DNA from: Chamaelirium japonicum
Taxonomy: Eukaryota > Streptophyta > Magnoliopsida > Liliales > Melanthiaceae
NCBI GenBank assembly: GCA_947650365.1
Contig: OX393551.1
Span: 59,215,744 to 59,279,743, forward strand
DNA: 64,000 nt
Direction: 5' to 3'
The notes beneath the pieces were generated by a model that worked only from the letters and a program-made list of their open reading frames with translations, searched no databases and was not told the DNA's origin. Below are positions 1-34,490 of this stretch, in pieces; within the stretch, counting starts at the first letter, position 1, and each line of letters opens with the position of its first letter. The translations under genes were made by a program, and so were the position numbers.

Positions 1-330
1 CGGGCGAGCTATGAGTACCGTCCATGGGCGACCTCTTCCGCGTGCGACCTTTTTACATGCGGTCAGGGTAAGCCTCGGGCGAGCTGTGGGTACCAGCCAT
101 GGGCAACCTCTTCTACGTGTGACCTGATCTCGGTGGTCAGGGCAATCCCCGGGCGAGTTGTGAGCACCAGCCACGGGCGACCTCTTCTGCGTGCGACCTA
201 ATCTCGGTGGTTAGGGCGAGCCCTGGGTGAGTTGTGAGCACTGACCATGAGCGACCTATTCCGCATGCGATCTAATCGCAGCTATTAGGGCGAGCTATTT
301 GGGAGTGTTCTCTAAATTTCCAAGATCTAT
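1..330. repeat. 74-bp tandem array, left copy (about 4 units, cut by window edge)
   Basis: Units of about 74 bp repeat with the shared core GGGCGAGCTGTGAGTACC, then CATGGGCGACCTCTTCCGCG, then a GATCTCGGTGGTCAGGG-type segment. The same array lies at 33890-34490 in inverted orientation. It belongs to the 3' untranslated part of gypsy element G1, upstream of the antisense ORF promoter. Unit number differs between the two arms by one. Confidence 0.85.
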
Positions 331-906
331 TCAGGTCACAATACTGTTTGCCCCAAAATTGGGGCTGGCTTCAAATCTTGAGCTCATTCGGGGGGAAAAC
401 TTCCCTCGTCTTATCGTGTCTCCCTCTGCTGCTGCCATGTAGACGACGAGTCGTATGCATTCTTTGGCACCATCATTACCCCCTCCTAGATAGGCGAGCA
501 TCCAGAACGGTCGAAGCCCGTCTAGGAGTCGATCATTGGTCCCTTCTGTAGGTTAGATGGCAGCCGACTTCGGGAATCACAAAGATCCGGACCTCTATCT
601 GTATCGTCTCATTAATGGGGCGTGGGATCGAGACTCGAGGCGCTAGACATCATCATGAATTTTTAAATAGCCTCGTACGGGGCCGCGTCACGTGGCACAC
701 ACCGGTTGACTGGATATCAATCGCGTATCGGCAAGGGGGGATGTTGCTAGCGTTGCTGTCGTCGGTGCAGGTGCGGGGATGTGTACAGGGACACGCATTA
801 ATCTCTGATCGGGAGAGAGGCGATTGTCCTTACGATTGCTACGGCGTCGCCTCGCACGTTGAGCTCCGTATTAAATGTTGATGGCTTCATATGCCTTCAC
901 TGATCC

Positions 907-914
907 TATAAATA
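907..914 (+). promoter_or_regulatory. TATA box of the antisense ORF, left arm
   Basis: TATAAATA lies inside CCTATAAATAGGGG, about 155 bases upstream of the ATG at 1070. It points in the opposite direction to the gypsy pol. An A/T-poor leader with short AGCTCGCTCTTCT-like repeats (about 960-1045) follows. This is a good plant core-promoter match, but transcription is inferred. Confidence 0.6.
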
Positions 915-1069
915 GGGGTGAGGACTTTTACTCACTTTCTGTGAAAGAGCTCTCCCTTCCAGCTCGCCTTTGTAACTCGCTCCTCTAGCTCGCTCTCATA
1001 GCTCGCTCTTCTAGCTCGTTTTTCTAGCTCGCTCTTCTTATTGCATTTTCCTCCACCCCTGCTCCTAAT

Positions 1070-3543
1070 GTGGCGACCTCCCAGGACGAGCCCGTCGCTG
1101 CTATTCCTATCTCTGTGACCTGCCCGGGTGGTCAGGAAGAGGAAGCCCCTCTGAACGAGCCCACCATAGTTTGGTTCAAGGATGCTGGCGGCCAACCCAT
1201 TTCGGAGAGCCTGCATGCCGCCGCCAATATCCTTCCCCATCTCCTGCTAACCACCATGCCTCGCTTGGGGAGGCTGGGACAATTGTTTCAGTGGGTTTGC
1301 TGTGGTCCAGGCTCAGACTCCCTCTAAATCGCCTGGCGGGCGAGCTGCTGGAGCTGGCGGGTTTATGCCCATCCCAACTCATAGGCAACTCCTGGGGTAT
1401 CTCTACGGGCTCTCTCGGATCGAGGATGCCCTCAACGTGAAGATCCCGCTCTCCTACCTCCTAAAAAAATGGTTACTCAAGGCGGGCTCTACCTACAACG
1501 ACGTTGGCTGTGACGTCTTCTACCTTGTCGGACGCCCTAGCGAGGTGCTCCCCTTCTCCTCCATCGAGAACAAGGACAGGTACTAGAAGGAGTACTTGTT
1601 CGTGGTTGCCGGGGAGTGGCAAGGGTGGCACATGGGTGTCCCATGCCACCTGGGTAGGCCGCTTCTATCCGTCTTCAAGGAGATCAGCTTGTATCGAGCT
1701 GGCGCGAAGAAGTGCATCATGGACTCGAGGGAATGGTCCCTCGATACCGCTATCTTAGACTTCTTGGGAGGGCAAACTCCCAAGAAGGCCATCGCGCCTG
1801 ACTTTGCGTTCTAGCTGAGGGACGCCAAGACCGGAGGCGTCGCCACTAAGCAAAAGATGGCACGGAAGAAGAAGGTCGTTATCTCCTACCGGGCTGGTGC
1901 GGGCCAGGGGACCCAAGGCGCTGGGACCTCCGGAGGCGTCCCGCCGAAGAGGATGGGCAAGAAGCGGGCCTCGCCTATTTGATTCGACGATGCTGACACC
2001 ATGGAGATGCTCGGAGAGGCCAAGATTGCTCTGCCCCCACCTCCTCCGGTTGAAGCTGCTGCCTCAGGTGAGCCTTGTGCTCCCCCTGCTCTTTCTTCTA
2101 CTACTTCTGCCACTGCTGCTATAGCAGGCTCTGCTCCGGAGGCTTCTGTTCCACAACGATAGGTCATTATGATCAAGCCCGAAGATTCGCGCGTCGATCT
2201 CCTGCTCTCTATGGCGGAAGTGGGGTCTCTCATGGCTGAGATCTTGATGCGAGATTTCCCTGGCGACCTCTCAAAACCACTCATTGTTGCAGTGATGACT
2301 CCAGAAATGGAGAAGGGGAAAGAGAAGAGGAAGATTGCTTGGCGGCCCCCTCACCCTTCGGGGGGGAGGACGACTTGCTCGGGAAGCTTTTGCCCGGGTG
2401 CTGGCAGAGAAGAAGAAGGCCGCTATGCGCGAAGCGGGCCTAGGATCGGACGCCGATCTCAGCTCGGAGGATGAGGCTGCTCAACCAGTCTCCGTCACCG
2501 CTCCAGCTCCGATCGTGCCACCCCCGCCCTTCTAGGGGCCTGCTCTCGCGGGTGCCCCGGTCACCTCGCCTCCAAAGTCCCTGGCCCCAGTCCGCATGGG
2601 CGCCCAAGAGGTCACCGACCCTCTTGGAGACTTGGGGGGTTTAATCTACAAGGCTCCCACCCTAAGGCCCATCAGATCCAAGTCCTCAAGCTCGGGCCCT
2701 AAGGCTTCAAGATCGGACTAGTCCAGGGCGAGGAATTCGGTGGACCCCGCCTGGACGGTGGGGAAGGCGGGTCCTCGCGAGTTCCTCCGGATCTGACCAT
2801 AGCTAATCCTGCGGCCCATATTCCTCCCACGGCAGGCTCCATAGGATAAGAGGCATCGGGGACCTCGCCCTCCTTGGGCGAGGTGGCCAGGGCCCCCCAC
2901 TACCTTCGTGAGATCTTCGACCGTAACATTTTTGCCAAGTCTCCGCTCATGGTGATTTTTGACAGGCTCGCCGAGGTAACACCCTGGTTTTCCTCTTTTT
3001 TCCCTGCTCTTCTTTCTGATTGCTTACTTGACCTTCACTGGTGGAAAAGGTGAACCGGACTCTGGCCGAGAATGTTGCCGCCACTAGAGGGAGCCTCGTT
3101 GCTCTCTTCGATGACTCCCTCCTGGGCTCGGAGCGTCGGATAGATGAGCACATCCACTGACTCCGCCAAGCGGATCGGTCCGACAAGCTAAAAGCCGAGG
3201 TGGACTACGTCAGTAGGTGGCCAACCTGGCATCCGAGCTGGCTTCTGCCGATGAAGCCCACTCCCTCTCAACCGCCAAGCTGCAAGAGGCCCTGAAGGTG
3301 AAGGATACGGGGCAAGCAAAGCCCACCCAACTCCGTAGCGAGGCTATCATTATGAAGGACAAGATTGCCGCGATGAAGGAGGCACACCCCCGCGATCTGT
3401 GAGCCCAATAGAGCCACCTCCAGGCGCAACTCAATGAGCTCCTCTAGAAGGGCACGCTTGATGCGGTGGAACGATACAAGACCGAGAGGTCAAAAAAGAG
3501 ACGTCAGGGGAGCAGCAGTGGGGCGGACATGAGCAGACTCTGA
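1070..3543 (+). pseudogene. Antisense accessory ORF of gypsy element G1, left copy
   Basis: This is a decayed coding unit running opposite to pol. It begins with MATSQDEPVAA at 1070, shifts frame near 1302-1327, then keeps one frame to about 2330 apart from nonsense codons at 1584, 1812, about 1980 and 2160. Another shift occurs near 2335. A probable short intron spans about 2970-3051 (GTAACACC to GGAAAAG), followed by a coiled-coil-like, Lys/Glu/Ala-rich tail that ends at TGA 3541-3543. The middle part (KDRY-stop-KEYLFVV, where Trp would fit the stop) resembles the 'putative gypsy-type transposon' proteins of plant Tat/Retand elements, which carry an extra ORF antisense to pol. The family assignment is from memory of that architecture; the protein's role is unknown. 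Confidence 0.6.
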
Positions 3544-4129
3544 GCTCACTGTCCTTATCTCTGTAACCACCTTTTGAAATAATGAAATCTTTTTTTTTAG
3601 CTCGCTTGTCTCTATGTTGCTTTCTCTCTTTGATGTCCCTGAGTTCTCATCCATGGTTGTTTCAGGGGTGTCGAGGGTCCTACCCCGGGCAAGGCAACTA
3701 ATTCGTCGAAAAAGTTCCAATCTAAAAAAGACGATATGCAAGTGAAAAATATGATATGCACGATAAAACACAATGACCCCTGAGCTCGGAAAACCATCCG
3801 AAGAACAAATCTAATAATTCAAAACTTCCTAAGCTCAAGGATTCAATACTTTATTTTGAAAAACAAATTAAGTACTAGCTGCCCTCTGCTTGGTTAATTA
3901 CCCCTAGCAACCCTAGTTACTGGATATGCCCTCAGCTCGATTTGGCGACCTCGCAACTCTCTGCGATCTTGCCAAATCCAAACTTTGAGGGGTTACCAAA
4001 AGATTTTCAGGTCGCCGAAATGGGTGGTCACCCATTCTTGTCCCCTTAGATTACCCCAGGGTGCTTCCGATCATGGCGTATGAACGTAAAGGACCCCCGT
4101 CTTGTTTAAAGTCCCCTAGACAGCGGACT
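3544..4129. other. Spacer between antisense ORF and pol, left arm
   Basis: No supportable coding sequence is seen. Just after the antisense ORF stop there is an AATAATGAAATC stretch near 3573-3590 that could act as its poly(A) region. The rest is G1 internal non-coding sequence, repeated in the right arm at about 30045-30630. Confidence 0.5.
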
Positions 4130-6339
4130 GTACTTTGATAGAGCTGCGTGCGATCTATTACTTCATCTGCTTCTGGGAGCTCTACACACCTGAGGTTGGG
4201 CCTGCTAAAGGACTTTCTGAAGAGGCGGACCCAACGAATGAGATACCCGCCGGCACTATTCTCAATTCACCGAGTTTCTTCCTTATTGTCGGGGAGTTCA
4301 CCCTTCTAGAGATAGCGAGCAATTGGCGCAGTCCAACCGGTGGGTAGTACCTTAGCTGAGGTTTGATTTACTACGCTCTCACCAAGTTGGATTCGGAGTC
4401 GATCGTGTACTTCGATTACTATTTACCATACTTCGAGACCTCCAAGCAGGGAGGCAGTGTTAGATAAGGCATCTGCTCGCTTGTTGTCTGATCGAGGGAT
4501 TTGCTCGAACGAAGTATTCTCGAATTTTGCGATCATGCCCTTTACGAGACCCACATAGCTCGCCATTCGCGTATTTCGGGAGGCATAGTCACTGTTGACT
4601 TGGCAAATGATTAGCTGAGAATCACTAAAGACGTCAAGCTTTCTCACACCAACATCATTAGTGAGCTACAGGCCAGCCAAGAGTGCTTCGTACTCGGCCT
4701 CATTATTCGTGGCTGTGAAACCTAGCCGAATAAATTTTCGAGAATTACTTTATTGGTGATCAGTACGACCCCGATTCCCGTTCCAAAGACGTTGGATGAG
4801 CCATCGACGAAGAGCTTCCAATCTTTAGCAGTGGCTGATTCGGTCAGGAAGTGATCACCTGGCTCGCCCAGGAACCTCGTCCTCCTAGGGTGTGCCTTTG
4901 TTGGCTCGTCTTCCAAGATTGAGATTGGCTCTTCAAGCGGGAAGTCTACCAAGAAATCGGCCAAAGCCTACCCTTTGATTGCAATTTGCAGGATATACTC
5001 CAATCCGTAAGTGGTGAGCTCAGTAGACCAGCTGTAGAGCCTCCCGGCTACCGAAGGCTTTGATAGCGCGCTCTTCAAGGGGTGCTCGGTGATGACTTTG
5101 ATGGAATGCACTGAGAAGTAAGGATGGAGCTTCCACGCAGTTAAGACCAAGGCCAGGTCGACCTTCTCGATTGGTCAATATCGGAGCTCGACGAGGAGCA
5201 TAATGTGACTTATGAAGTACATGGGCCTTTATAGCTTTGCATCTTCCAACAATAGGACCCCGCTCACCGCATTCTCGATTACAGAGAGATAGATGCCGAA
5301 ATCGTCTCGAACTTTGGGTGTGGCCAAAATGGGGGGACTAACCAGGTAATCTTTGACTTTTCTGAACATAAACTCACACTTCTCATCCCAACGAATGTTG
5401 GATCCCTTTCGAAGCAATTCGAACAAGGGTCGGTAACTGTCAGAAGACTTCCAAATGAAGCGATTAATTATCACGATTCGCCCGCTCAACCTCTAGACTT
5501 CCTACCGCATCCTCGATGAGGGCATCTCGATGAGCGCTCTGATTTGTGTCTGCCTCGATTCCACGATGGGTGACCAGGTACCCCAAGAACTTTCTAGAGG
5601 TAACTCCAAATGCACACTTTGCCGGGTTCAACTTCATTTGAAATTTTCTCAAGACGTCAAATACCTCTTTGAGGTCGGCGATATGTCCCTCTCACTGGCG
5701 ACTCTTCACCAAGAGGTCATCTACATACACCTCGACATTCTTGCTGATTTGATCCTTGAACATATGAGTGACTAACCTTTGATAGGTTGCCCTGGTGTTC
5801 TTGAGTCCGAAAGGCATCACCCGGTAGTAGAACAACTTTTGGTACCCCGTTCCAGAGTAGAAAGCGGTCTTCTTTTGGTCGTCAGGATGAAGAGGTATCT
5901 AGTTATATCCAGAATACCCGTCCATGAAGGAGAGAGCCCGGAATCCGATAGCAGCATCCACTAGAGCTCCGATTCTTGGGAGGGGAAATCCGTCTTTTGG
6001 GCATGCTTTGTTGAGGTCGGAGAAGTCTATACATACCCGAACAGCTCCGCTCTTCTTTGGCACTGTCACGATACTGGAGATACACTCAGGAAAATAAGCC
6101 TCGTGGATAAATCCAGCTCACTCTAGCTTTTCAACTTCTGCCGCAACTGCAGCGGCCTTCGCAACTGGGATATGCCGAGCTTTCTGCTTGATTGGAGGGA
6201 AGTCGTGCAGGGTGTGCAAACGGTGGCAAGTGACCTCGGGATCAATCCTGGGCATATCGGCAAAGCTCCATGTGAACACGTCCCAGTAATCTTTGAGAAA
6301 AATTATCAAGGAGGAGACTTCGGCTTCGGTCAATGATGT
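4130..6339 (-). pseudogene. Gypsy G1 pol remnant (reverse transcriptase and RNase H), left copy
   Basis: Read on the minus strand this begins right at the G2 junction with TEAEVSSLIIFLKDYW, passes PRIDPEVTCHRL, and enters a Ty3/gypsy reverse transcriptase. That domain has the CIDFSDLNKACPKDGF and MDGYSGYN motifs and a YVDD active site at 5715-5726. An RNase H domain follows (KLFVDGSSNVFGTG near 4800, then NKRADALSNTASLLGG). Several stops and shifts break it, and the integrase is missing. At about 6180 this copy keeps the frame KQKARHIPVAKAAA that the right copy has lost through one extra A, so the left arm is the better preserved here. It is non-functional. Confidence 0.9.
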
Positions 6340-6952
6340 TGTGGGGGGAAATTCCCGAGCCGCCTTGATCGAGAATTCCACCCCACAGCCTTGATTGAAT
6401 TTGATGGTTTGTAGAGTTAGAGAGATGGAAGAGTAAATAAAGAGAGTAGGGAGTGATGACACAATGATAGGTGACGGAGTTCAGTCTTACGACCTACGTC
6501 TCCGGGCGAGAGGTGCCACCTGATCTTCACTATAATTTGAGTAAAATGAGGGGTGAGCGTTCTCTTGACAGGCCAAGAGAAGCTTCGTACAGTGGGGTTG
6601 CACGGAGCAACTAGAAGAGTACAAGAAGGAGAGAATTGAGCTCTAGCACTTGCTCTGGAATCCTCCTCCTCTGATTGAATGACCAACCTTCTTCCTGGAT
6701 GCCTTGGGGATCTTTTTATAGCGTAGGCATGTGCCCGATATGGCAGTGATGACATGGCGATGATGATATGGCACTGGTTCTGGGCCTCCTTGCTGGGTCC
6801 TTATTGGGCCGTTGTTCGGGCCCAATAAAGGGGAGGGCTTGATCTACGAGCCCCGTAGAGTGGGCCCATGAACCCGGGCGGGCTTACCCACTTGGGCCAT
6901 TGCGCGGGCCCATACCGCTCTGATCCGCTCCAGTACAATTTTTGCACCCACA
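6340..6952 (-). repeat. Copied 3' LTR of G2 in the left arm (613 bp)
   Basis: On the minus strand it starts TGTGGGTGCAAAAATT and ends TTTCCCCCCACA, the same boundaries as the G2 LTRs at 19991-20603 and 27222-27834. It carries the 3'-LTR type of the variants, for example GCTATAAAAAGATCC where the 5' LTR has GCTATAAAAGGACCC. At 6335-6339 it is followed by the ACATC target base group (GATGT on the plus strand), then by G1 pol. This confirms that it was copied after G2 had inserted. Confidence 0.95.
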
Positions 6953-7236
6953 GTTACCCCCTCCCAGTCGGGTCAGGACCCCCGGGGTCGGCTGGGATTC
7001 CAAGGTGCAAACGCCTTAGGATTCTGGCATGGTTGGCAAGGACCGTTAGTGTCGCGGTTCGTATTAGTAGAGTCTCCTTCTGCCGATGCCGAGACCCTTT
7101 TGGCGCGAGCCCAAAAGTCTCGGTTTTGCAAGTGGGCGTTTCCGAAAAAGCAGTGTGTTTTCCAACCGAGAGGATACCGAGATGATACCGAGAGGGTACC
7201 AAGAGGATACCGAGAGGATACCAAGAGGGTACCGAG
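6953..7236 (-). repeat. 3' internal tail of G2 in the left arm
   Basis: This matches 26938-27221 inverted. It holds the polypurine tract (GGGAGGGGGTAAC on the minus strand) next to the LTR, and the start of the run of short TCTCGGTATCC/ACC repeats. Similarity to the right arm stops abruptly at 7236, where copia/MITE sequence begins. Confidence 0.9.
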
Positions 7237-7442
7237 GTTTCAAATGAGCATTTTGCGCTCAATATCATTTATCCCAACCTTATATGCTCTCCATTTACCC
7301 TAGTTTAGGTGGTTCTTTTCTAATTCTCCAGGCCTAGTTTTCCCTCTTCTAAGGGTAAAATCGTCCTAATAAACTGTATTATGTAAGTGATAATCAAACC
7401 ACGGATACAGCCAGAATATTTCTCCCAAATAGACGTCAGCTA
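7237..7442 (-). mobile_element. Half of a fold-back MITE (truncated at the duplication junction)
   Basis: This is the inverse of 35899-36105, one arm of the MITE at 35899-36426. It ends at TTAGCTGACGTC (minus strand) inside a copia LTR, at the same host position as in the right copy. The other arm is missing because the inverted duplication is joined here. Confidence 0.75.
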
Positions 7443-8322
7443 ACCTGTGAGAGATCAATTTGCCTGAGTAATCGACTTTTCAGGGGTTGATATATAAAAA
7501 TGAGGTTTCTAAGGGGTTATTGCATGACTAATCTAGTTTTCAGTGGTTGATATACAAATATGAGGCTTCTTAGGGTTAATATCTTAAAGGCTTACCTTTT
7601 AAGGGGCTATATGTAAAGATTTCTGTTTTAAAATATAGTTAATAAGATCCACAACTCTGACTCATATCCTAGATATCTTTCTACCTCATCCCTGGATGGG
7701 CGTAGCTCGTTTGGTGGGAAATGATTTAGATTTGTATCAATTCACCTTATTCATAAGATTTTTATTTTAAAATCTACTTCACTTTTAGTCCCACTAAATA
7801 CATATAGGGGTAAGAAATCAATGTCGTTTAATTTTATAGATTTGAAACAAACAATGCAAATATCATATCAACATCGAAAAGATCGAGAAAGAATATTACA
7901 CCTCCGACCATATTGCATCAGGGATGGCGATATGATGAGGTTGCTTGATCCCACTTGGAGTATCTCCCTCGAACATGAATGAACATGCGTGTAGACTAGT
8001 CCTTGTATCAAAGCCTTGTCTCCGAAACCTCGTAGCCGATCAAAAGAGATAGGAGAGAGGGAGATATTTCTAGTTTAGTCTTTGACTGAATGATTACCTT
8101 AATAGATGGTTGATACATCTATTTATAACTAAACTAGGACACCCCCAAAACCATAATTATCGAAATCTAATATAATCATTCATAGGAATAGGTGAAGGAC
8201 TGTGATTCATCACTTAACCATAAAACATATGGGATTTATTTTTTATTAAAGTCCAATCATTTAGGGTTTACATTGGGTCATCCTTAAGCTCACACGCAGC
8301 CAATGTGTGGCCAAACCCAACA
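7443..8322 (-). repeat. Copia 3' LTR on the minus strand (left copy)
   Basis: Read on the minus strand it starts TGTTGGGTTTGGCCACACA immediately after a polypurine tract (AAATGGGAGAG, 8323-8333). It has a TATA-like TTATAAATAGATG near 8125. It aligns with the right copy at 35395-35898 with roughly 10% divergence. It also contains about 370 bp (7488-7860) absent from the right copy. The true 3' end of the LTR is uncertain because a MITE sits in it and the duplication joins there. Confidence 0.7.
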
Positions 8323-9576
8323 CTCTCCCATTTGGCACAATAATTTTAATAAGCAATAAGAAATCAAACTATAATACTCATACAAATTTTGAAAGCAAAA
8401 CTTTACCAATATTTCCTTATATGGTATCCATAAGTTCAAATGAAAGTTTTCAATCACATGAAACATGATGGCCGTACCCATATCGATAAATAGTTCATTC
8501 CATGTGTTAATTATAATATAATCATTCATGACCACACACTTTATGTGACGAATAGCTTTATGAGTAAATGAATGATTCACTCTATGTGAGAACATTACGC
8601 CTCAAAACTTTAAGTGTACATAGCTGAGACAAGACAAAACTTTATTCATTGCTGAAAATAAGGTTTTTTGTAATTAGTAAGAGTACAATGAGCTAGTAAG
8701 ATATATACGATCCACATGACTCTTATACTTAATGGGTGGTAACCCTGTTGAGGATCATGCTAGACGATACTGGATAAACAATCCGATACTAAATCATTTC
8801 GACCATGATGGGTCAACAAAGATCAATTGCACAAAATGATTCTCCAACGAATCGATGCGAAACAAGTAATCCAACATAAATAGAGAAGTAGCAAGGCAAG
8901 AAGAATCAACCATAAAGTAATCACATAAGTGAGACAAGAGATTTACATGGAAACCCTTGCGGGAGAAAACCACAGGTGAAGACAATCAGACGGTCTACTA
9001 GAACGAAAAACAAACGGAGTTACAAGCAACACTCAACTCTAACAAGATAAACTCCCTTCGTCGAGAGCACCTCCTTCTTCTCCAAACCCTCACCAAGCCT
9101 CTCTAAGCCTCCCTTAAAGTATACTAACTTTCCTCATGAATCTAAAAACCTTAGTATCCCGTATATATTAAGGGAATAGGTGTACATACGCTATATTCTG
9201 AAATTCCCATTAAAACAACATCAAAAGGAAAACCAAACTGTGCGCAAGGTTGGTCTGACTCGCATTGCCAGACAAAGTCGTGTGCATGATATGGGAAAGT
9301 CGTGCGCATAACTTCCTACGCTCATGTCTCATCGAGTGAAGGAAGGACGCGTCGAGATTCTCGGGGCCCAGGTTGTGCACACAAACTGTCGGTCGCGCGC
9401 ATGACACCTGGGCAAGACGTGTACGTCGACTTTTTTGGAGCGGGAAGGTTGTGCAAACGATCTGTCCAGATCTTGCGCATGACACCTAGAGTTAAGCCAC
9501 TTCTTCAATAATCTTCACCTTGAAAAGAAGTATAAAATAAAATCGATCGTCATTTTCACCTGCACCCTAACGGTGC
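8323..9576 (-). other. Copia 3' internal and LTR-like sequence
   Basis: Bases 8323 to about 8600 are copia 3' internal sequence; the part near 8323-8475 matches 35250-35394. From about 8620 to 9230 there is a second LTR-like stretch with the phrase ACATGGAAACCCTTGCGGG (read on the plus strand), of a type common in plant copia LTRs. A possible start is TGTTGTTTTAATGGG on the minus strand near 9220. No ORF is convincing. Whether this is one element or two nested copia ends cannot be settled by eye. Confidence 0.4.
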
Positions 9577-20603: not shown

Positions 20604-20605
20604 AT

Positions 20606-22569: not shown

Positions 22570-23460
22570 TAAAAAAAAGGCTCCTGGCAACCCAGGTCAA
22601 CCACAGACCTTCGATTCCACCCATTCAAGTCGGAAGCTCGAAGGCAATTCGGCTACGCCCTCTCGAGGCTAAAGTCCGATAAAAAGGCTCCTGGCAACCC
22701 AGGTCAACCAAAGACCTTCGATTCCGCCCATTCAAGTCGGAAGCTCGAAGGCAATTCGGTTACACCCTTTCAAGGCAAAAGTCCGATAAAAAGGCTCCTG
22801 GTAATCCAGGTCAATCAAAGACCTTCGATTCCGCCCATTCAAGTCGGAAGCTCGAAGGCAATTCGGCTACGCCCTCTCGAGGCTAAAGTCCGATAAAAGG
22901 CTCCTGGCAACCCAGGTCAACCAAAGACCTTCGATTTCGCCCGTTCAAGTCAGAAGCTCGAAGGCAATTCGGCTATGCCCTTTCGAGGCGAAAGTCCGAT
23001 AAAAAAGGTTCATGGCAACCCAGGTCAACCGAAGACCTTCGATTCCACCCATTCAAGTCGGAAGCTCGAAGGCAATTCAGCTACGCCCTCTCGAGGCTAA
23101 CGTTCGATAAAAAGGCTCCTGGTAACCCAGGTCAACCAAAGACCTTTGATTCCGCCCGTTCAAGTCGAAAGCTCGAAAGCAATTCGACTATGCCCTTTCG
23201 AGGCGAAAGTCCGATAAAGAGGCCCCTGGCAACCCAGGTCAACCAAATACCTTCGATTCCGCTCATTCAAGTCGGAAGCTCGAAGGCAATTCGGCTACGC
23301 CCTCTCGAGGCTAAAGTCCAATAAAAAGGCTCCTGGCAACCCAGGTCAACCAAAGACCTTCGATTCCGCCCGTTCAAGTCGGAAGCTCGAAGGCAATTCA
23401 GCTACGCCCTTTCAAGGCGAAAGTCTGATAAAAATGCTCCTGACAATCCAGGTCAAGCTA
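22570..23460. repeat. 107-bp tandem array in G2 (about 9 units)
   Basis: The unit contains AAGGCTCCTGGCAACCCAGG, then AAAGACCTTCGATTCCGCCC, then TCAAGTCGGAAGCTCGAAGG. Unit starts are near 22575, 22682, 22788, 22893, 23000, 23109, 23217, 23325 and 23432. No protein reading survives across units. It lies in the non-coding interior that replaces pol. Confidence 0.9.
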
Positions 23461-23559
23461 AGCTATCAACTATACTCATCCGAGGCGATGAGAATAAACC
23501 TAAGGCAGGCGTCGCCGCTTTGATATGCACCAAGTTCAAGGAGACATCCTTGGCACTCA

Positions 23560-23790
23560 AAGACAAAGTCCGAGGCGACCAACACCTCGGCACTCTACAA
23601 GCCCAAGGCCCAGCCCTTGGCACTCGAAGACAAAGTCCGAGGCGACCAACGCCTTGGCACTCAATAAGCCCAAGGCCATGCCCTTGGTACTCGAAGACAT
23701 AGTCCGAGGCGACCGATACCTCAGCACTCTACAAACCCAAGGCCCTACCCTTGACATATAAAGACAAAGTCCGAGACGTCATCGCCGACG
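23560..23790. repeat. About 80-bp tandem repeats in G2 (about 3 units)
   Basis: Units share AAAGTCCGAGGCGACC and GCACTCTACAAGCCCAAGGC. They follow the 107-bp array after about 100 bases of intermediate sequence. They are non-coding. Confidence 0.8.
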
Positions 23791-24160
23791 TATTGACATT
23801 CGATCAAAAGTCCAAGCTTAGTCTTGTCACTCAGGTCCAAGCATCAGATTGTCACTGGCCATCACCTTTTCTCGATGACTAACGATTCCAAACCGGTCAG
23901 GGGGTGGTTGGTCTAACTCTGTCAATGTGTGTCTCCACACTGGTGCAGTCGATGGTGGGTAACACGGGATAAAATGGTGCTTCCTTGATCCTGGCCAAGT
24001 CAACACCGTCACGTGACCGTAGTACCTGGCGAATACTGTAACCAGGTACGGTAGTACATTGGGTGAAGACTGGCTGGCCATCATGCGGCATCGTCCTAGA
24101 TTATCTCTAAGAAGCCCTCTCAAATATAGCATTGTCCCTCGCTGACATCCCTGCACACCA
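23791..24160. other. G2 interior without recognisable gene
   Basis: No domain, long conserved frame or repeat array is evident. It separates the ~80-bp repeats from the hairpin array. Confidence 0.4.
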
Positions 24161-25130
24161 GCGTTTTACCGAAAAAGTGTCGGTTTCAAATGGGGCTGAA
24201 ATTCGAAAAACACACTATTTTCAATACCGACACTTTTTGGCCTCTTCTAGCAGCCCCAAAAATGGGGTGTCGGCATCAACAAGCAGCCCCCCCTCGGTTT
24301 CACACAAAAACCGAGTGGGGAGGGGGTGACGACACACCATCAGTAGCACACCCCTCGGTTTTGTCAAAAAACCGAGAGGGGGTGGTGTCGGCATCAACAA
24401 GCAGCCCCCCCTCGGTTGTGCACAAAAACCGAGTGGGGAGAGGGTGACGGCACACCATCAGCACACCCCTCGGTTTCGTCAAAAAACCGAGAGGGGGTGT
24501 GTGTTGGTATCACCCTCGGTTTCGAACAAAAATCGAGTGGGGAGGGGGTGACGACACACCATCAGCAGCACACCCCTCGGTTTCGTCAGAAAACCGAGAG
24601 GGGGTGGTGTCGGCATCAACAAGCAGCCCCCCCTCGGTTTCGCACAAAAATCGAGTGGGGAGGGGGTGACGGCACACCGTCAGCACACCCCTCGGTTTCG
24701 TTAGAAAACCGAGATGGGGTGTGTGTTGGCATCAACAAGCAGCCCCCCCTCGGTTTCGAACAAAAACCGAGTGGGGAGGGGGTGACAACACACCATCAGC
24801 AGCACACCCCTCGGTTTCGTCAGAAAACTTAGAGGGGGGTGTGTGTCGGCATCAACAAGCAGCCCCCCCTCGGTTTCGCACAAAAACCAAGTGGGGAAGG
24901 GGTGACGGCACCCCACAAGCGGCCCCCCATCTCGGTTTTGCAAAAAACCGAGAGGGAAGGGGGTGTTGGCATCAGCTACAGTCTACCCCTCGACTTTGAC
25001 AGAAAACCGAGAGGGGGTGGTGTTCGGCATCAACAGCAACTCACCCCTCAGTTTCGTCAAAAAACCGAGAGGGGGGTGTGTCGGCATTAACAAGCAGTCC
25101 ACCCCTCAGTTTTGCACAATACCTGAGAAG
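24161..25130. repeat. Hairpin array: repeated CTCGGTTT...AAACCGAG palindromes in G2
   Basis: Units of about 150-160 bp repeat roughly six times. Each holds CCCCTCGGTTT, a short A-rich loop and AAACCGAGAGGGG or AAACCGAGTGGGG, so single strands would fold into stem-loops. Linkers such as GGCATCAACAAGCAGCCCCC are conserved. A different stem (ACCGAAAAAGTGTCGGT facing ACCGACACTTTTTGG) opens the array at about 24167-24240. Many open frames result from the repeat period and are not genes. Confidence 0.9.
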
Positions 25131-25880
25131 GGGGGAGGTGTTCCGATTCGGCAACTAGGTGTATCTTAGTCGAGATGGGGAAAGGAGCTGTCTGAGCGTC
25201 ACAAATTGACTCGCCGCTCGAGATCAAAATAAAAAAAAAAGAGAAGGGAAACCCCGGGACTTGTATGGTGCTGCACCAACCCGTGACTATTGAAGCTCGC
25301 CCTAGAAGCTGGTACTCTCTCTTTTCAGCGTCTTATGGATACCCAATCTCAACACAAAACAGCGAGACCCAATCTCAACACAAACAACAACAAAAGGAGC
25401 TCGGGTTGCACCTCGCGGGGAAAGCCTTGCCTAAAAGGGCAGCAGCTCATAGGGAAAGCCTTGCCTAAAGGGGCTACAATCACATGGAAGACCTTGCCTA
25501 AAGAAGCTGCAATCATATGGAGGGCCTTGCCTAAAGGGGCAGCAGCTTGTATGGAAGGAATAGATGTCACAAAAGTGCAGCATGTTGTGCCAATTGCATG
25601 AGTACAGCGTGTGTTGCACCTCAACACACCAAGTGCAACGTGTGTTGCACCTCAATTCACCAAACCCCATAATTAAACCACCAGCTTGTCCAGCCATCTT
25701 AACGCACCCCCCCCCCCCCCCCCCTCTTGACTTGGTGGTAGTCTCGTGCGACCAAGCTCAGTTTGTGGAGACGACATCACGAGCTTGGTTGAATCGAGCC
25801 AAGCTCGGGATAGAAGACAACACAGCGCACGTCGAGGCTCGTATGAGATCCGTGCAGAAGACCACGTGGCAAACATCAAG
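25131..25880. repeat. G2 interior with short direct repeats and a poly-C run
   Basis: Short repeats of GGAAAGCCTTGCCTAAAGGGGC occur four times around 25420-25560, in words up to about 20 bases. A poly-C run of 18 lies at 25707-25724. No gene is seen. Confidence 0.6.
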
Positions 25881-26740
25881 GCTCGGCATCAACAACACCT
25901 TCCCTCGGTTTCTTCAAAAACCGAGAGAGAGGGTCTCGGTTCCTACAGCAAAGGCCCCCTCGATTTTGTCAAAAACCGAGAGTTCAGCATCGACAACAAC
26001 CCACCTCTTGGTTTCGCACAAAAATCGGAAGGAGGGAGAAGCACGCTCAAAGCACAAGCGAGCGATGGCTCAACAGGTGTTGAAAGATATACGGTATTGA
26101 ATCAAACCATGAGATCGCCCAAAGGTTCTACAGCTCGCGTGGAAAACGTTGCTTAATTGGGTGTTGAATCACGCCACGAGATCACCCGAATCACACCTCC
26201 GGATGGCCTGAGAGTGCTACATCTCATATGGAAGTAAAACCATGATTATTGGGGTGTTGAATCGTACTTCCATATTGACCAAAAGGTGCTGCATCTTATA
26301 TGGCAGCAAAGCCTTGTTTAATGGGGTGTTGAACCGCACCTCCCTATTGGCCTAAAGATGCTGCATCTTGTATGGAAGTAAAGGTGCTGCATCTCGTATA
26401 GAAGTAAAGGTGTTGAAAGATTTGTTTAATTGGGTATTGAGAGGTGTCAAAGGCTGTGGAGACACGCATCACAAGCTTTGTTGAATCGCACCTAGCTCGG
26501 GATAGGAGAAGACGTTGCGGTCTTAGGCTCGTATGAGATCTGTGCAGAAGACCAATCAGCGAGCGTCAAGGTTCAACATTCTACAGCAACACCCCCCTCG
26601 GTTTCGTCAAAAACCGAAAGGGGGATCTCGGTTTCTATAGCAATGCCCTCCCTGTTTCGTCAAAAATCGAGAGGGGGGTCTCGGTTTCTACAGCAATGCC
26701 CCCCCTCGGTTTTGTCAAAAATCGAGAGGTGGGGGGTGCC
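25881..26740. repeat. Second cluster of CTCGGTTT hairpins and CATCTxGTATGGAAG repeats in G2
   Basis: The CCTCGGTTT...AAACCGAG stem-loop recurs near 25900, 25960, 26010, 26600, 26660 and 26710. Between them, short repeats TGCTGCATCTTGTATGGAAG and variants occupy about 26215-26430. It is non-coding. Confidence 0.75.
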
Positions 26741-27207
26741 TCGGCATCCTCTCAGTCGGGAAAAGGGAAAAGGGTCTCGGTACCCTCTTGGTATACTCTC
26801 GGTCGGAAAATACACTAATTTTTCGAGAACGCCTCCTCGAAAAACCGAGACTTTTTGGCTCGCACCAAAAGGGTCTCGGCGTCGGCAAAAGGCAAAGGAG
26901 TCTCGGCATCCTCTCGGTCGGGAAAAGGCAAAAGGGTCTCGGTACCCTCTTGGTATCCTCTCGGTATCCTCTTGGTACCCTCTCGGTATCATCTCGGTAT
27001 CCTCTCGGTTGGAAAACACACTGCTTTTTCGGAAACGCCCACTTGCAAAACCGAGACTTTTGGGCTCGCGCCAAAAGGGTCTCGGCATCGGCAGAAGGAG
27101 ACTCTACTAATACGAACCGCGACACTGACGGTCCTTGCCAACCATGCCAGAATCCTAAGGCGTTTGCACCTTGGAATCCCAACCGACCCCGGGGGTCCTG
27201 ACCCGAC
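26741..27207. repeat. CTCGGTA(T/C)CC microrepeats at the 3' end of the G2 interior
   Basis: Runs of TCTCGGTATCCTCTTGGTACC and close variants fill about 26750-27010, with a duplicated block (AAAACCGAGACTTTT...GGGTCTCGGC) at about 26840-26880 and 27045-27090. The inverted-duplication breakpoint at 26938 falls inside this run. Confidence 0.8.
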
Positions 27208-27221
27208 TGGGAGGGGGTAAC
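27208..27221 (+). other. Polypurine tract of G2
   Basis: TGGGAGGGGGTAAC directly precedes the 3' LTR, as expected for the plus-strand priming site. Confidence 0.8.
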
Positions 27222-27834
27222 TGTGGGTGCAAAAATTATACTGGAGCGGATCAGAGCGGCATGGGCCCGCGCAATGGCCCAAGTGGGTAAGCCCGCCCGG
27301 GTTCATGGGCCCACTCTACGGGGCTCGCAGATCAAGCCCTCCCCTTTATTGGGCCCGAACAACGGCCCAATAAGGGCCCAGCAAGGAGACCCAGAACCAG
27401 TGCCACATCATCATCGCCATGTCATCACTGCCATATCGGGCACATGCCTACGCTATAAAAAGATCCCCAAGGCATCCAGGAAGAAGGTTGGTTATTCAAT
27501 CAGAGGAGGAGGATTCCAGAGCAAGTGCTAGAGCTCAATTCTCTCCTTCTTGTACTCTTCTAGTTGCTCCGTGCAACCCCACTGTACGAAGCTTCTCTTG
27601 GCCTGTCAAGAGAACGCTCACCCCTCATTTTACTCAAATTATAGTGAAGATCAGGTGGCACCTCTCACCCGGAGACGTAGGTCGTAAGACTGAACTCCGT
27701 CACCTATCATTGTGTCATCACTCCCTACTCTCTTTATTTACTCTCCCATCTCTCTAACTCTACAAACCATCAAATTCAATCAAGGCTGTGGGGTGGAATT
27801 CTCGATCAAGGCGGCTCGGGAATTTCCCCCCACA
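27222..27834 (+). repeat. G2 3' LTR (613 bp)
   Basis: It has the same ends and length as the 5' LTR, with a TATA box TATAAAAA at 27454-27461. It is followed by the TSD ACATC (27835-27839) and then by G1 pol in frame with the sequence left of G2. Confidence 0.95.
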
Positions 27835-30044
27835 ACATCATTGACCGAAGCCGAAGTCTCCTCCTTGATAATTTTTCTCAAAGATTACTGGGACGTGTTC
27901 ACATGGAGCTTTGCCGATATGCCCAGGATTGATCCCGAGGTCACTTGCCACCGTTTGCACACCCTGCACGACTTCCCTCCAATCAAGCAGAAAAGCTCGG
28001 CATATCCCAGTTGCGAAGGCCGCTGCGGTTGCGGCAGAAGTTGAAAAGCTAGAGTGAGCTGGATTTATCCACGAGGCTTATTTTCCTAAGTGTATCTCCA
28101 ATATCGTGACAGTGCCAAAGAAGAGCGGAGCTGTTCGGGTATGTATAGACTTCTCCGACCTCAACAAAGCATGCCCAAAAGACGGATTTTCCCTCCCAAG
28201 AATCGGAGCTCTAGTGGATGCTGCTATCGGATTCCGGGCTCTCTCCTTCATGGACGGGTATTCTGGATATAACTAGATACCTCTTCATCCTGATGACCAA
28301 AAGAAGACCGCTTTCTACTCTGGAACGGGGTACCAAAAGTTGTTCTACTACCGGGTGATGCCTTTCGGACTCAAGAACACCAGGGCAACCTACCAAAGGT
28401 TAGTCACTCATATGTTCAAGGATCAAATCAGGAAGAATGTCGAGGTGTATGTAGATGACCTCTTGGTGAAGAGTCGCCAGTGAGAGGGACATATCGCCAA
28501 CCTCAAAGAGGTATTTGACGTCTTGAGAAAATTTCAAATGAAGTTGAACCCGGCAAAGTGTGCATTTGGAGTTACCTCTGGAAAGTTCTTGGGGTACCTG
28601 GTCACCCATCGTGGAATCGAGGCAGACACAAATCAGAGCGCTCATCGAGATGCCCTCATCGAGGACGTGGTAGGAAGTCTAGAGGTTGAGCGGGCGAATC
28701 GTGATAATTAATCGCTTCATTTGGAAGTCTTCTGACAGTTACCGACCCTTGTTCGAATTGCTTCGAAAGGGATCCAACATTCGTTGGGATGAGAAGTGTG
28801 AGTTTATGTTCAGAAAAGTCAAAGATTACCTGGTTAGTCCCCCCATTTTGGCCACACCCAAAGTTCGAGACGATCTCGACATCTATCTCTCTGTAATCGA
28901 GAATGCGGTGAGCGGGGTCCTATTGTTGGAAGATGCAAAGCTATAAAGGCCCATGTACTTCATAAGTCACATTATGCTCCTCGTCGAGCTCCGATATTGA
29001 CCAATCGAGAAGGTCGACCTGGCCTTGGTCTTAACTGCGTGGAAGCTCCATCCTTACTTCTCGGTGCATTCCATCAAAATCATCACCGAGCACCCCTTGA
29101 AGAGCGCGCTATCAAAGCCTTCAGTAGCCGGGAGGCTCTACCACTGGTCTGCTGAGCTCACCACTTACGGATTGGAGTATATCCTGCAAATTGCAATCAA
29201 AGGGTAGGCTTTGGCCGATTTCTTGGTAGACTTCCCGCTTGAAGAGCCAATCTCAATCTTGGAAGACGAGCCAACAAAGGCACACCCTAGGAGGACGAGG
29301 TTCCTGGGCAAGCCAGGTGATCACTTCCTGACCGAATCAGCCACTGCTAAAGATTGGAAGCTCTTCGTCGATGGCTCATCCAACGTCTTTGGAACGGGAA
29401 TCGGGGTCGTACTGATCACCAATAAAGTAATTCTCGAAAATTTATTCGGCTAGGTTTCACAGCCACGAATAATGAGGCCGAGTACGAAGCACTCTTGGCT
29501 GGCCTGTAGCTCACTAATGATGTTGGTGTGAGAAAGCTTGACGTCTTTAGTGATTCTCAGCTAATCATTTGCCAAGTCAACAGTGACTATGCCTCCCGAA
29601 ATACGCGAATGGCGAGCTATGTGGGTCTCGTAAAGGGCATGATCGCAAAATTCGAGAATACTTCGTTCGAGCAAATCCCTCGATCAGACAACAAGCGAGC
29701 AGATGCCTTATCTAACACTGCCTCCCTGCTTGGAGGTCTCGAAGTATGGTAAATAGTAATCGAAGTACAAGATCGACTCCGAATCCAACTTGGTGAGAGC
29801 GTAGTAAATCAAACCTCAGCTAAGGTACTACCCACCAGTTGGACTGCGCCAATTGCTCGCTATCTCTAGAAGGGTGAACTCCCCGACAATAAGGAAGAAA
29901 CTCGGTGAATTGAGAATAGCGTCGGCGGGTATCTCATTCGTTGGGTACGCCTCTTCAGAAAGTCCTTTAGCAGGCCCAACCTCAGGTGTGTAGAGCTCCC
30001 AGAAGCAGATGAAGTAATAGATCGCACGCAGCTCTATCAAAGTA
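27835..30044 (+). pseudogene. Gypsy G1 pol remnant (reverse transcriptase, RNase H), right copy
   Basis: This continues the G1 frame after the G2 insertion (SLTEAEVSS). One extra A near 27990 shifts the frame in this copy only. The reverse transcriptase motifs CIDFSDLNKACPKD, MDGYSGYN and YVDD (28448-28459) are present, as is FGLKNTRATYQ. RNase H follows (WKLFVDGSSNVFGTG near 29355, then NKRADALSN near 29690). A short linker reading (LPTSWTAPIARYL) leads to about 30040. The integrase is absent; non-coding sequence replaces it. Stops such as SRQ-stop-EGH make it non-functional. Confidence 0.9.
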
Positions 30045-30630
30045 CAGTCCGCTGTCTAGGGGACTTTAAACAAGATGGGGGTCCTTCACGTTCATACGCC
30101 ATGATCGGAAGCACCCTGGGGTAATCTAAGGGGACAAGAATGGGTGACCACCCATTTCGGCGACCTGAAAATCTTTTGGTAACCCCTCAAAGTTCGGATT
30201 TGGCAAGATCGCAGAGAGGTGCGAGGTCGCCAAATCGAGCTGAGGGCATATCCAGTAACTAGGGTTGCTAGGGGTAATTAACCAAGCAGAGGGTAGCTAG
30301 TACTTAATTTGTTTTTCAAAATAAAGTATTGAATCCTTGAGCTTAGGAAGTTTTGAATTATTAGATTTGTTCTTCGGATGGTTTTCCGAGCTCAGGGGTC
30401 ATTGTGTTTTATCATGCATATCATATTTTTCACTTGCATATCGTCTTTTTTAGATCGGAACTTTTTCGACGAATTAGTTGCCTTGCCCGGGGTAGGACCC
30501 TCGACACCCCTGAAACAACCATGGATGAGAACTCAGGGACATCAAAGAGAGAAAGCAACATAGAGACAAGCGAGCTAAAAAAAAGATTTCATTATTTCAA
30601 AAGGTGGTTACAGAGATAAGGACAGTGAGC
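30045..30630. other. Spacer between G1 pol and the antisense ORF, right arm
   Basis: No coding sequence is supportable. It is the counterpart of 3544-4129. Integrase would be expected here in a complete element but is missing. Confidence 0.5.
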
Positions 30631-33104
30631 TCAGAGTCTGCTCATGTCCGCCCCACTGCCGCTCCCCTGGCGTCTCTTTTTTGACCTCTCGGTCTTGTAT
30701 CGTTCCACCGCATCAAGCGCGCCCTTCTAGAGGAGCTCATCGAGTTGCGCCTGGAGGTGGCTCTATTGGGCTCACAGATCGCGGGGGTGTGCCTCCTTCA
30801 TTGCGGCAATCTTGTCCTTCATAATGATAGCCTCGCTACGGAGTTGGGTGGGCTTTGCTTGCCCCGTATCCTTCTCCTTCAGGGCCTCTTGCAGCTTGGC
30901 GGTTGAGAGGGAGTGGGCTTCATCGGCAGAAGCCAGCTCGGATGCCAGGTTGGCCACCTACTGACGTAGTCCACCTCGGCTCTTAGCTTGTCGGACCGAT
31001 CCGCTTGGCGGAGTCAGTGGATGTGCTCATCTATCCGACGCTCCGAGCCCAGGAGGGAGTCATCGAAGAGATCAACGAGGCTCCCTCTAGTGGCGGCAAC
31101 ATTCTCGGCCAGAGTCCGGTTCACCTTTTCCACCAGTGAAGGTCAAGTAAGCAATCAGAAAGAAGAGCAGGGAAAAAAGAGGAAAACCAGGGTGTTACCT
31201 CGGCGAGCCTGTCAAAAATCACCATGAGCGGAGACTTGGCAAAAATGTTACGGTCGAAGATCTCACGAAGGTAGTGGGGGGCCCTGGCCACCTCGCCCAA
31301 GGAGGGCGAGGTCCCCGATGCCTCTTATCCTACGGAGCCTGCCGTGGGAGGAATATGGGCCGCAGGATTAGCTATGGTCAGATCCGGAGGAACTCGCGAG
31401 GACCCGCCTTCCCCACCGTCCAGGCGGGGTCCACCGAATTCCTCGCCCTGGACTAGTCCGATCTTGAAGCCTTAGGGCCCGAGCTTGAGGACTCGGATCT
31501 GATGGGCCCTAGGGTGGGAGCCTTGTAGATTAAACCCCCCAAGTCTCCAAGAGGGTCGGTGACCTCTTGGGCGCCCATGCGGACTGGGGCCAGGGACTTT
31601 GGAGGCGAGGTGACCGGGGCACCCGCGAGAGCAGGCCCCTAGAAGGGCGGGGGTGGCACGATCGGAGCTGGAGCGGTGACGGAGACTGGTTGAGCAGCCT
31701 CATCCTCCGAGCTGAGATCGGTGTCCGATCCTAGGCCCGCTTCGCGCATAGCGGCCTTCTTCTTCTCTGCCAGCACCCGGGCAAAAGCTTCCCGAGCAAG
31801 TCGTCCTCCCCCCCGAAGGGTGAGGGGGCCGCCAAGCAATCTTCCTCTTCTCTTTCCCCTTCTCCATTTCTGGAGTCATCACTGCAACAATGAGTGGTTT
31901 TGAGAGGTCGCCAGGGAAATCTCGCATCAAGATCTCAGTCATGAGAGACCCCACTTCCGCCATAGAGAGCAGGAGATTGACGCGCGAATCTTCGGGCTTG
32001 ATCATAATGACCTATCGTTGTGGAACAGAAGCCTCCGGAGCAGAGCCTGCTATAGCAGCAGTGGCAGAAGTAGTAGAAGGAAGAGCAGGGGGAGCACAAG
32101 GCTCACCTGAGGCAGCAGCTTCAACCGGAGGAGGTGGGGGCAGAGCAATCTTGGCCTCTCCGAGCATCTCCATGGTGTCAGCATCATCGAATCAAATAGG
32201 CGAGGCCCGCTTCTTCCCCATCCTCTTCGGCGGGACGCCTCCGGAGGTCCCAGCGCCTTGGGTCCCCTGGCCCGCACCAGCCCGGTAGGAGATAACGACC
32301 TTCTTCTTCCGTGCCATCTTTTGCTTAGTGGCGACGCCTCCGGTCTTGGCGTCCCTCAGCTAGAACGCGAAGTCAGGCGCGATGGCCTTCTTGGGAGTTT
32401 GCCCTCCCAAGAAGTCTAAGATAGCGGTATCGAGGGACCATTCCCTCGAGTCCATGATGCACTTCTTCGCGCCAGCTCGATACAAGCTGATCTCCTTGAA
32501 GACGGATAGAAGCGGCCTACCCAGGTGGCATGGGACACCCATGTGCCACCCTTGCCACTCCCCGGCAACCACGAACAAGTACTCCTTCTAGTACCTGTCC
32601 TTGTTCTCGATGGAGGAGAAGGGGAGCACCTCGCCAGGGCGTCCGACAAGGTAGAAGACGCCACAGCCAACGTCGTTGTAGGTAGAGCCCGCCTTGAGTA
32701 ACCATATTTTTAGGAGGTAGGAGAGCGGGATCTTCACGTTGAGGGCATCCTCGATCCGAGAGAGCCAGTAGAGATACCCCAGGAGTTGCCTATGAGTTGG
32801 GATGGGCATAAACCCGCCAACTCCAGCAGCTCGCCCGCCAGGCGATTTAGAGGGAGTCTGAGCCTGGACCACAGCAAACCCACTGAAACAATTGTCCCAG
32901 CCTCCCCAAGCGAGGCATGGTGGTTAGCAGGAGATGGGGAAGGATATTGGCGGCGACATGCAGGCTCTCCGAAATGGGTTGGCCGCCAGCATCCTTGAAC
33001 CAAACTATGGTGGGCTCGTTCAGAGGGGCTTCCTCTTCCTGACCACCCGGGCGGGTCACAGAGATAGGAATAGCAGCGACGGGCTCGTCCTGGGAGGTCG
33101 CCAC
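30631..33104 (-). pseudogene. Antisense accessory ORF of G1, right copy
   Basis: This is the counterpart of 1070-3543 with the same ATG (33104), the same nonsense codons (for example TAG at 32588-32590) and the same stop TGA (30631-30633). The probable intron lies at about 31123-31204. Differences from the left copy are single substitutions, such as a Gly-to-Trp reading near 32765. Shared stops show that decay came before the inverted duplication. Its function is unknown; the layout recalls the extra antisense ORF of Tat/Retand elements. Confidence 0.6.
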
Positions 33105-33259
33105 ATTAGGAGCAGGGGTGGAGGAAGATGCAATAAGAAGAGCGAGCTAGAAAAACGAGCTAGAAGAGCGAGCTATGAGAGCGAGCTAGAGGAGCGAGTT
33201 ACAAAGGCGAGCTGGAAGGGAGAGCTCTTTCACAGAAAGTGAGTAAAAGTCCTCACCCC

Positions 33260-33267
33260 TATTTATA
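33260..33267 (-). promoter_or_regulatory. TATA box of the antisense ORF, right arm
   Basis: The plus strand reads TATTTATA, that is TATAAATA on the minus strand, about 155 bases upstream of the ATG at 33104. It is conserved between the arms. Confidence 0.6.
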
Positions 33268-33889
33268 GGATCAGTGAAGGCATATGAAGCCATCAACATT
33301 TAATACGGAGCTCAACGTGCGAGGCGACGCCGTAGCAATCGTAAGGACAATCGCCTCTCTCCCGATCAGAGATTAATGCGTGTCCCTGTACACGGCCCCG
33401 CACCTGCACTGACGACAGCAACGCTAGCAACATCCCCCCTTGCCGATACGCGACTGATATCCAGTCAACCGGTGTGTGCCACGTGACGCGGCCCCGTACG
33501 AGGCTATTTAAAAATTCATGATGATGTCTAGCGCCTCGAGTCTCGATCCCACGCCCCATTAATGAGACGATACAGATAGAGGTCTGGATCTTTGTGATTC
33601 CCGAAGTCGGCTGCCATCTAACCTATAGAAGGGACCAATGATCGACTCCTAGACGGGCTTCGACCGTTCTGGATGCTCGCCTATCTAGGAGGGGGTAATG
33701 ATGGTGCCAAAGAATGCATACGACTCGTCGTCTACATGGCAGCAGCAGAGGGAGACACGATAAGACGAGGGAAGTTTTCCCCCCGAATGAGCTCAAGATT
33801 TGAAGCCAGCCCCAATTTTGGGGCAAACAGTATTGTGACCTGAATAGATCTTGGAAATTTAGAGAACACTCCCAAATAGCTCGCCCTAA

Positions 33890-34490
33890 TAGCTGCGATT
33901 AGATCGCATGCGGAATAGGTCGCTCATGGTCAGTGCTCACAACTCACCCGGGGCTCGCCCTAACCACCGAGATTAGGTCGCACGCAGAAGAGGTCGCCCG
34001 TGGCTGGCGCCACATCCCTCCCAAGGCTTACCCTGACCGCATGTGATTAAGTCGCACGCGGAAGAGGTCGCCCATGGCTGGTGCTCACAACTCACCCGGG
34101 GATTGCCCTGACCACCGAGATCAGGTCACACGTAGAAGAGGTTGCCCATGGCTGGTACCCACAGCTTGCCCGAGGCTTACCCTGACCGCATGCAATCAGG
34201 TCGCACGCGGAAGAGGTCGCCCATAGACGGTACTCATAGCTCGCCCGGGGCTCACCCTGACCGCTGAGATCAGGTCGCACGCGAAAGAAGTCGCCCGTGG
34301 TCGGTGCTCATAACTCGCCCGGGGCTCGCCCTGACCGCATGTGATTAGCTCGCACACGGAAGAGGTCGCCCATGGTCGGTACTCACAGCTCGACCGGACC
34401 TCGCCCTGACCGCCGAGATCAGGTTGCACATGGAAGAAGTCATCCGCGGCTGGTGTTCACAGCCCGCCCGAAGCTTATAGTAGCGGATCG
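33890..34490. repeat. 74-bp tandem array in G1, right copy (about 7-8 units)
   Basis: Units contain GAAGAGGTCGCCCATGG, CACAACTCGCCCGGGGC-like and CCCTGACCGCATG or CCCTGACCACCGAGATCAGG segments. It continues past the part matched in the left arm, because the window starts inside the left array. Confidence 0.85.

Follow-up and report, generated by a model that had tools for sequence, protein, structure and literature searches.

An inverted segmental duplication in Chamaelirium japonicum copied a class III peroxidase gene with a nested retrotransposon junction, probably steered by older inverted repeats

Introduction

How does a plant gene come to lie, together with part of a retrotransposon nest, in two inverted copies a short distance apart, and how much of the event that copied it can be read back? 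The question is raised by a 64,000-nt stretch of the Chamaelirium japonicum genome (assembly GCA_947650365.1, contig OX393551.1, forward strand 59,215,744-59,279,743), hereafter the window. In the window and its upstream flank, a class III peroxidase gene and the join between two nested retrotransposons, G2 and G1, are found in two inverted arms, the copies of a duplicated segment that we call D. Recent inverted copying of a gene along with a piece of a retrotransposon nest is a fairly ordinary route of gene duplication, and this duplication belongs to an already known kind of event. As far as the sequence tells, the locus is a readable case of a plant gene gaining a second, apparently intact copy: where the copy came from, in which direction it was made, one of its exact ends and its relative age are all legible, since the copied segment included a datable join of nested retrotransposons. 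The duplication was probably steered by older inverted repeats. If this reading of two ages is true, older inverted repeats steer a later gene duplication; otherwise the locus is one more young segmental duplication.

We analyzed the window with 40 kb of upstream and 20 kb of downstream flank (124 kb in total; negative positions are bases upstream of window position 1) and searched the genome (1.52 Gb, 3253 contigs). Each genome-wide search scored 40 places from a larger list in which most candidates carry no score, and statements on copies elsewhere refer to the scored places. Coordinates are collected in Table 1.

Table 1. Features of the duplicated segment and its surroundings (window coordinates)
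Feature	Position	Strand	Remarks
D, right (source) copy	26938..39723	+	outer end between about 38.8 and 39.7 kb
D, left (derived, inverted) copy, part in window	1..7236	-	extends upstream to about -5465
New junction	7233..7236		4-bp overlap; CTCG common to fold-back repeat Z and the minisatellite in the tail of G2
G2 LTR retrotransposon, complete	19991..27834	+	5' LTR 19991-20604, 3' LTR ending 27834
G2 target-site duplication ACATC, left side	19986..19990	+
G2 target-site duplication ACATC, right side	27835..27839	+	left arm has ACATC here too
G1 part left of G2	18030..19985	+
G1, reverse transcriptase and RNase H part to 3' end	27840..35245	+	frames broken
Repeat Z, probably older copy on spacer side	7233..7482	-	8/247 sites differ from right Z'
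Repeat X, probably older copy on spacer side	7863..8471	-	47/604 sites differ from right X'; without G1 interruption
Repeat X' in D	35247..35862	+	cut by G1 3' end
Fold-back repeat Z' in D	35860..36430	+	arms 35899-36047 and 36275-36423 (about 150 bp), 79% inverted identity
Class III peroxidase, right copy	37485..39098	-	exons 39098-38883, 38779-38585, 38045-37485; 323 aa
Class III peroxidase, left copy	-4848 to -3230	+	exons -4848 to -4636, -4532 to -4338, -3790 to -3230; 322 aa
Peroxidase-upstream stretch	39224..39766		probably older inverted copies at -7559..-8084, partly -11890..-12264; outer end of arm match lies here

Results

Two inverted arms share a retrotransposon join and a peroxidase gene

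The inverted segmental duplication of about 12 kb is real in this assembly, gene-bearing and directional. Window positions 1-7236, on the reverse strand, align to 26938-34172 at 98.3% identity over 7238 columns. With the flanks included, the inverted match runs on the right from 26938 to about 39723 and on the left from 7236 to about -5465, giving arms of about 12.7 kb separated by a 19.7-kb spacer. The original prediction had described a young inverted duplication that copied a nested retrotransposon join, and this account is supported, as are its inner edges at 7236/7237 and 26938; at the new join the two sides share four bases, CTCG. It was incomplete in ending the arms at the window start and at 34247 (the true limits are about -5465 and 39720, hence 12.7 and not 7.2 kb) and in missing the peroxidase gene, and to it we add a readable direction and probable older inverted relatives at the target.

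Over the inner 11.8 kb (right 26938-38780, omitting the 74-bp minisatellite at 33897-34477), the arms differ by substitution at 119 of 11250 aligned sites, or 1.06% (85 transitions and 34 transversions), with eight indel events and at most six substitutions in any 100-bp stretch. For the shorter arms of the original prediction, which had put the divergence at about 1%, the count is 82 in 7235 aligned sites (right 26938-34247). Transitions dominate the differences in the retrotransposon part (27836-33890; 53 against 11 transversions), and the gene with its 3' flank (36431-38780) has no such excess (11 against 15). Two private features noted earlier, one 74-bp unit and an extra A near 27990, are both present (the A at 27991), and a further extra A lies on the left opposite 30576. 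The original prediction had the same antisense-frame stops in both arms; the corresponding open frames across the G2/G1 join are of unequal length (left, 120 aa at 6121-6480 on the reverse strand; right, 116 aa at 27694-28041 on the forward strand), and the sequence adjoining the arms on the spacer side differs between the two. No N bases were seen in the 124 kb of window and flanks.

The peroxidase gene has three exons joined in phase, whose borders we judged by eye, guided by homology and by splice words. Its product matches PF00141 (E = 3.6e-80, residues 44-284), and the closest solved structure is peanut peroxidase 1sch (E = 6.8e-118, over residues 26-323). The two copies differ at ten codon positions, seven of them synonymous, two nonsynonymous and one a single-codon gap. 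Both nonsynonymous changes and the gap are confined to residues 14-19, which look like part of a signal peptide, as the alignment with the mature 1sch chain starts only at residue 26; from that residue onward the copies are identical. Both genes are complete, and the second copy is an apparently intact class III peroxidase. In full-length similarity and in its three exons the gene is a usual plant class III peroxidase, set apart here merely by its two near-identical inverted copies. In the rest of the genome, identity is 66-71% for scored matches that span the exons and up to 83% for pieces of the 3' flank (40 of 503 candidates scored). Farther upstream, at -31953 to -29859 on the forward strand, which is also that of the left copy, lies another class III peroxidase gene, 52-57% identical in the aligned parts.

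The right arm reads as the source of the copy

G2 is a complete long terminal repeat (LTR) retrotransposon with TG..CA ends (TGTGGG..CCCACA), two LTRs, a target-site duplication and a gag domain (PF03732 within 20857-21867, E = 7.5e-07), and on the right side it sits inside G1. In the left arm no more than the final 897 bp of G2 are present, the 614-bp LTR and the 283 bp ahead of it, cut at the base matching 26938. With G2 whole on the right, between both copies of ACATC, and truncated on the left, the ancestral inner edge is that of the right arm and the new one that of the left arm. Judged from these edges, the right copy is the source and the left copy derived, so that the direction is right to left. 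The donor is intact while the acceptor holds a copy, as in a repair-templated duplication. As predicted, the same join of 3' LTR, ACATC and G1 is present in both arms, and a 200-bp query across it matched end to end at the two arms only (40 scored of 1980 candidates).

The LTRs of G2 also order the events in time. Between the 5' LTR and the right 3' LTR, 29 of 615 positions differ (4.7%; the original prediction had about 29 of 613); the 5' LTR and the left 3' LTR show 30 differences, and the two 3' LTRs nine. All nine are C>T or G>A, and with the 5' LTR as outgroup the derived state is on the right in four and on the left in five. Such private derived changes in both 3' LTRs indicate that both arms have been mutating independently, and their four-to-five distribution argues against a simple assembly echo. 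With the arms 1.06% apart and the G2 LTRs 4.7%, the duplication is younger than the insertion of G2, in the order that had been predicted. The substitution rate of rice, a species other than the one studied here, is 1.3e-8 per site per year, and at this rate the duplication would be roughly 0.4 and the G2 insertion roughly 1.9 million years old.

G1 is the older host element. Its RVT_1 (E = 1.1e-24) and RNase H domains lie 3' of G2, all in broken frames, and no Pfam domains were found in its part left of G2 (18030-19985). The G1 end piece is matched at six further places 902-933 bp ahead of a match to this left part, a spacing like that of a 5' LTR, which indicates that the left part belongs to the same element family. 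Within the 124 kb, no second copy of the G1 end piece was found except in the left arm. Adjoining the left part, from 17101 or earlier to about 18029, is a repeat that contains degenerate telomere-like TTAGGG units followed by inverted CCCTAA, with relatives at four other scored places; it looks like an insertion into G1, since most other scored G1 matches begin at its edge (query 727-728).

The new junction joins a retrotransposon tail to a fold-back repeat

At the inner end of the left arm, the tail of G2 is joined to Z, a relative of the fold-back repeat Z' in D. The sequences at the join are TTTGAAACCTCGGTACCC on the left, TTTGAAACCTCGAGTAAA in Z' and GGGTCTCGGTACCC in the G2 tail. All three contain CTCG (4 bp), a microhomology at the join as expected of a repair-templated duplication. 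On the G2 side the edge falls in an 11-bp minisatellite, and on the other side in the loop of Z', for which a hairpin of -204 kcal/mol is predicted over 581 bases (RNA parameters, without a shuffled control).

Older inverted relatives probably preceded the copying

Outside D and directly adjoining the new junction lie Z and a second repeat, X, ordered and oriented as they are in the source. This spacer-side pair is more distant from D than the arms are from each other: Z differs from the two D copies at 8 or 9 of 247 sites (3.2%) and X at 47 or 48 of 604 (7.8%), against only 3 of 247 (Z) and 4 of 616 (X) between the D copies themselves. About 380 bp separate the spacer-side Z and X, and D lacks this stretch. 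X and Z occur together at this locus only (40 scored of 1581 candidates and 40 scored of 519 candidates), and pieces of either found elsewhere are at most 84% identical among the scored matches.

The end of G1 adds to the relative chronology. In 28 of 38 other long G1 matches the end falls within 35241-35247, where X' starts, which marks this as the natural end of G1. Since G1 ends where X' starts and the spacer-side X is uncut, G1 cut X', and the spacer-side X keeps the state from before G1. Relatives of the spacer-side X keep matching beyond 8471, to about 8745. Two other origins of the pair were rejected: reintegration of a permuted circular DNA, raised because Z-X both flanks the junction and lies in D, on the grounds that X and Z at the junction are 7.8% and 3.2% from D and not about 1%, and a single large element of which Z-X would be the LTRs, on the grounds that X and Z are found apart elsewhere at lower identity.

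Relatives are also found at the outer end. The stretch 39224-39498 occurs at this locus only (40 scored of 503 candidates): in both arms, at -7830 to -7559 (93%) and in part at -11996 to -11890 (96%). When 39180-39770 is aligned four ways, the two additional copies are 7.1-8.1% from the arms. Taken with X and Z, this points to a target that probably held older inverted relatives of the source before the recent copying. From about -12830 to -5470, sequence from 39.2-40.9 and 43-44 kb recurs as a local array of incomplete copies, mostly 76-95% identical and with mixed breakpoints.

The outer end is less sharp

Divergence rises toward the outer end, with 36 of 927 sites different in 38780-39723 against 119 of 11250 inside (Fisher p about 1e-9; the two counts come from different aligners). 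Past 39723, the left arm continues with sequence that differs at 21 of 421 sites from right 40439-40861.

Several observations here weigh against copying that began on older inverted relatives. In the four-way alignment the arms are themselves 5.8% apart (32/553; the last 8 beyond 39723), close to the 7.1-8.1% of the copies taken as older. Most of the outer excess falls in two clusters, one in intron 1 (8/99 and two indels) and one at 39501-39599, and 39099-39298 differs at just 1 of 192 sites. At 9 of the 11 differing sites in 39501-39599 the left arm matches the older copies and it is the right copy that has changed. Clustering and a changed right copy together argue that the excess is not simply old left sequence, and a former, older peroxidase gene on the left would rest mainly on intron 1. 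The stretch 39499-39766 has relatives at 16.7 kb, at 40.2 kb and elsewhere on the right (124 kb compared), and may therefore be part of a wider dispersed repeat. On the inner side, no homology was found when the sequence from 8472 on was compared with the DNA to the left of 18034, so that the older duplication is untraceable inward past X.

With the differences clustered in this way, the outer end can be placed only between about 38.8 and 39.7 kb. We had considered all of the outer divergence to be old left sequence, a candidate weakened by the four-way alignment and the 9 of 11 sites changed on the right. The dense clusters, at 38795-38864 and 39501-39599, hold 16 and 11 differences (MAFFT) against a background of 1%; they may be short patches of conversion, or clusters of mutations linked to repair.

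Discussion

A break-repair account and its rivals

The older inverted relatives that the target probably held make ectopic repair copying between older inverted repeats the better reading. Under it, the DNA would have broken within the left Z or next to it, and the right relative would have been invaded through homology in the gene or upstream of it; about 12 kb would then have been copied, through the gene, Z', X' and G1 and into G2, and Z would have captured the new end by way of CTCG. One homologous end together with one microhomology end would fit synthesis-dependent strand annealing (SDSA) or break-induced replication (BIR) with end joining. This account, break repair begun on older inverted homology and closed by microhomology, requires the fewest accidents, and we put its chances at about even. 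Length counts against it: about 12 kb appears too long for the short repair-templated patches, and a BIR-like process would be needed.

Human repair-templated duplications are at most 619 bp long, with microhomology of 2-9 nt and donor and acceptor within 5 kb (PMC2671141); fillers at rice excision sites measure 1-123 bp (PMC4423477), and in barley filler pointing to SDSA was found in 13% of the analyzed deletions (PMC3706897). The present case resembles these in that the segment was copied and not moved, from a donor on the same chromosome and with microhomology at the join. It differs in its length of about 12 kb and in one end that appears to be based on long homology, and from the human set also in a donor about 20 kb off. 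Junctions of the microhomology-mediated BIR (MMBIR) type have 2-5 bp of microhomology near low-copy repeats (PMC2621351); our locus shares the short microhomology, the endpoints near low-copy repeats and the inverted products, but shows no series of switches and has one apparently homologous end and one microhomology end. By our analysis, an event of about 12 kb is to be placed at the BIR end of the range of repair duplications.

A broader version of the break-repair account is a conjecture that we consider unlikely as a whole: older inverted repeats around the gene would be reused repeatedly as templates, so that repair of a break in one arm copies the gene and a growing retrotransposon nest to the other arm, with the CTCGG minisatellite in the tail of G2 and the loop of fold-back repeat Z as capture and break points that couple retrotransposon tails to gene duplication.

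One-step, microhomology-driven copying of D by MMBIR or fork switching, with no prior inverted duplication and with X-Z and the upstream repeats as mere local repeat richness, is the rival that survives best, though we regard it as doubtful. The 4-bp CTCG, a join that falls in both a fold-back loop and a minisatellite, and an outer excess made up mostly of two clusters are what it would predict. It fits poorly with X and Z adjoining only here among the scored places, where they are 92-97% identical while other scored pieces reach no more than 84%, and with inverted copies of 39224-39498 already present on the left.

An assembly artefact, with the left arm being the right arm's other allele, or a chimera, placed in inverted orientation, is improbable; the misplaced allele is nonetheless the main risk to the duplication reading. 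A divergence of about 1% is within the range of heterozygous plants, and only two close copies are present in the assembly among the scored places. Against an artefact stand the lack of N in 124 kb, the different spacer-side flanks of the arms and the surroundings of the left arm, which include older relatives of this block in inverted orientation; the private deamination-type changes, four and five of nine, speak against an echo and not against an allele.

Lowest of the rivals that we weighed, and improbable as well, is a staggered-break inversion of the 19.7-kb spacer that left inverted duplications at both ends. Staggered breaks are a described source of inverted duplications by a one- or two-chromatid route, and the form using two sister chromatids works without a long single-stranded overhang (PMC7584159). 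The geometry fits, with inverted arms around a spacer, but the arms are long, nothing marks the spacer as the inverted segment, and the one-chromatid form would need an overhang of about 12 kb where the passages cited from that source mention up to 3 kb of single-stranded DNA. The outer join, moreover, lies in repeats found on both sides, leaving no clean derived outer edge, and the X-Z pair at the join is left unexplained.

Other features of the locus

The spacer between the arms holds a 559-aa open frame (9799-11475, reverse strand) with DUF4371 and hAT dimerisation domains. Beyond the right arm, a 62-bp unit that includes a long stretch of G is repeated 2.3 times at 100% identity (40893-41067), and the array ends in 54 G, which is either a minisatellite or a sequencing artefact. 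Further right, at 41326-55270 on the reverse strand, several open frames of the long interspersed nuclear element (LINE) type carry endonuclease, reverse transcriptase, zf-RVT and RNase H-like domains, with one reverse transcriptase match below the Pfam cut-off.

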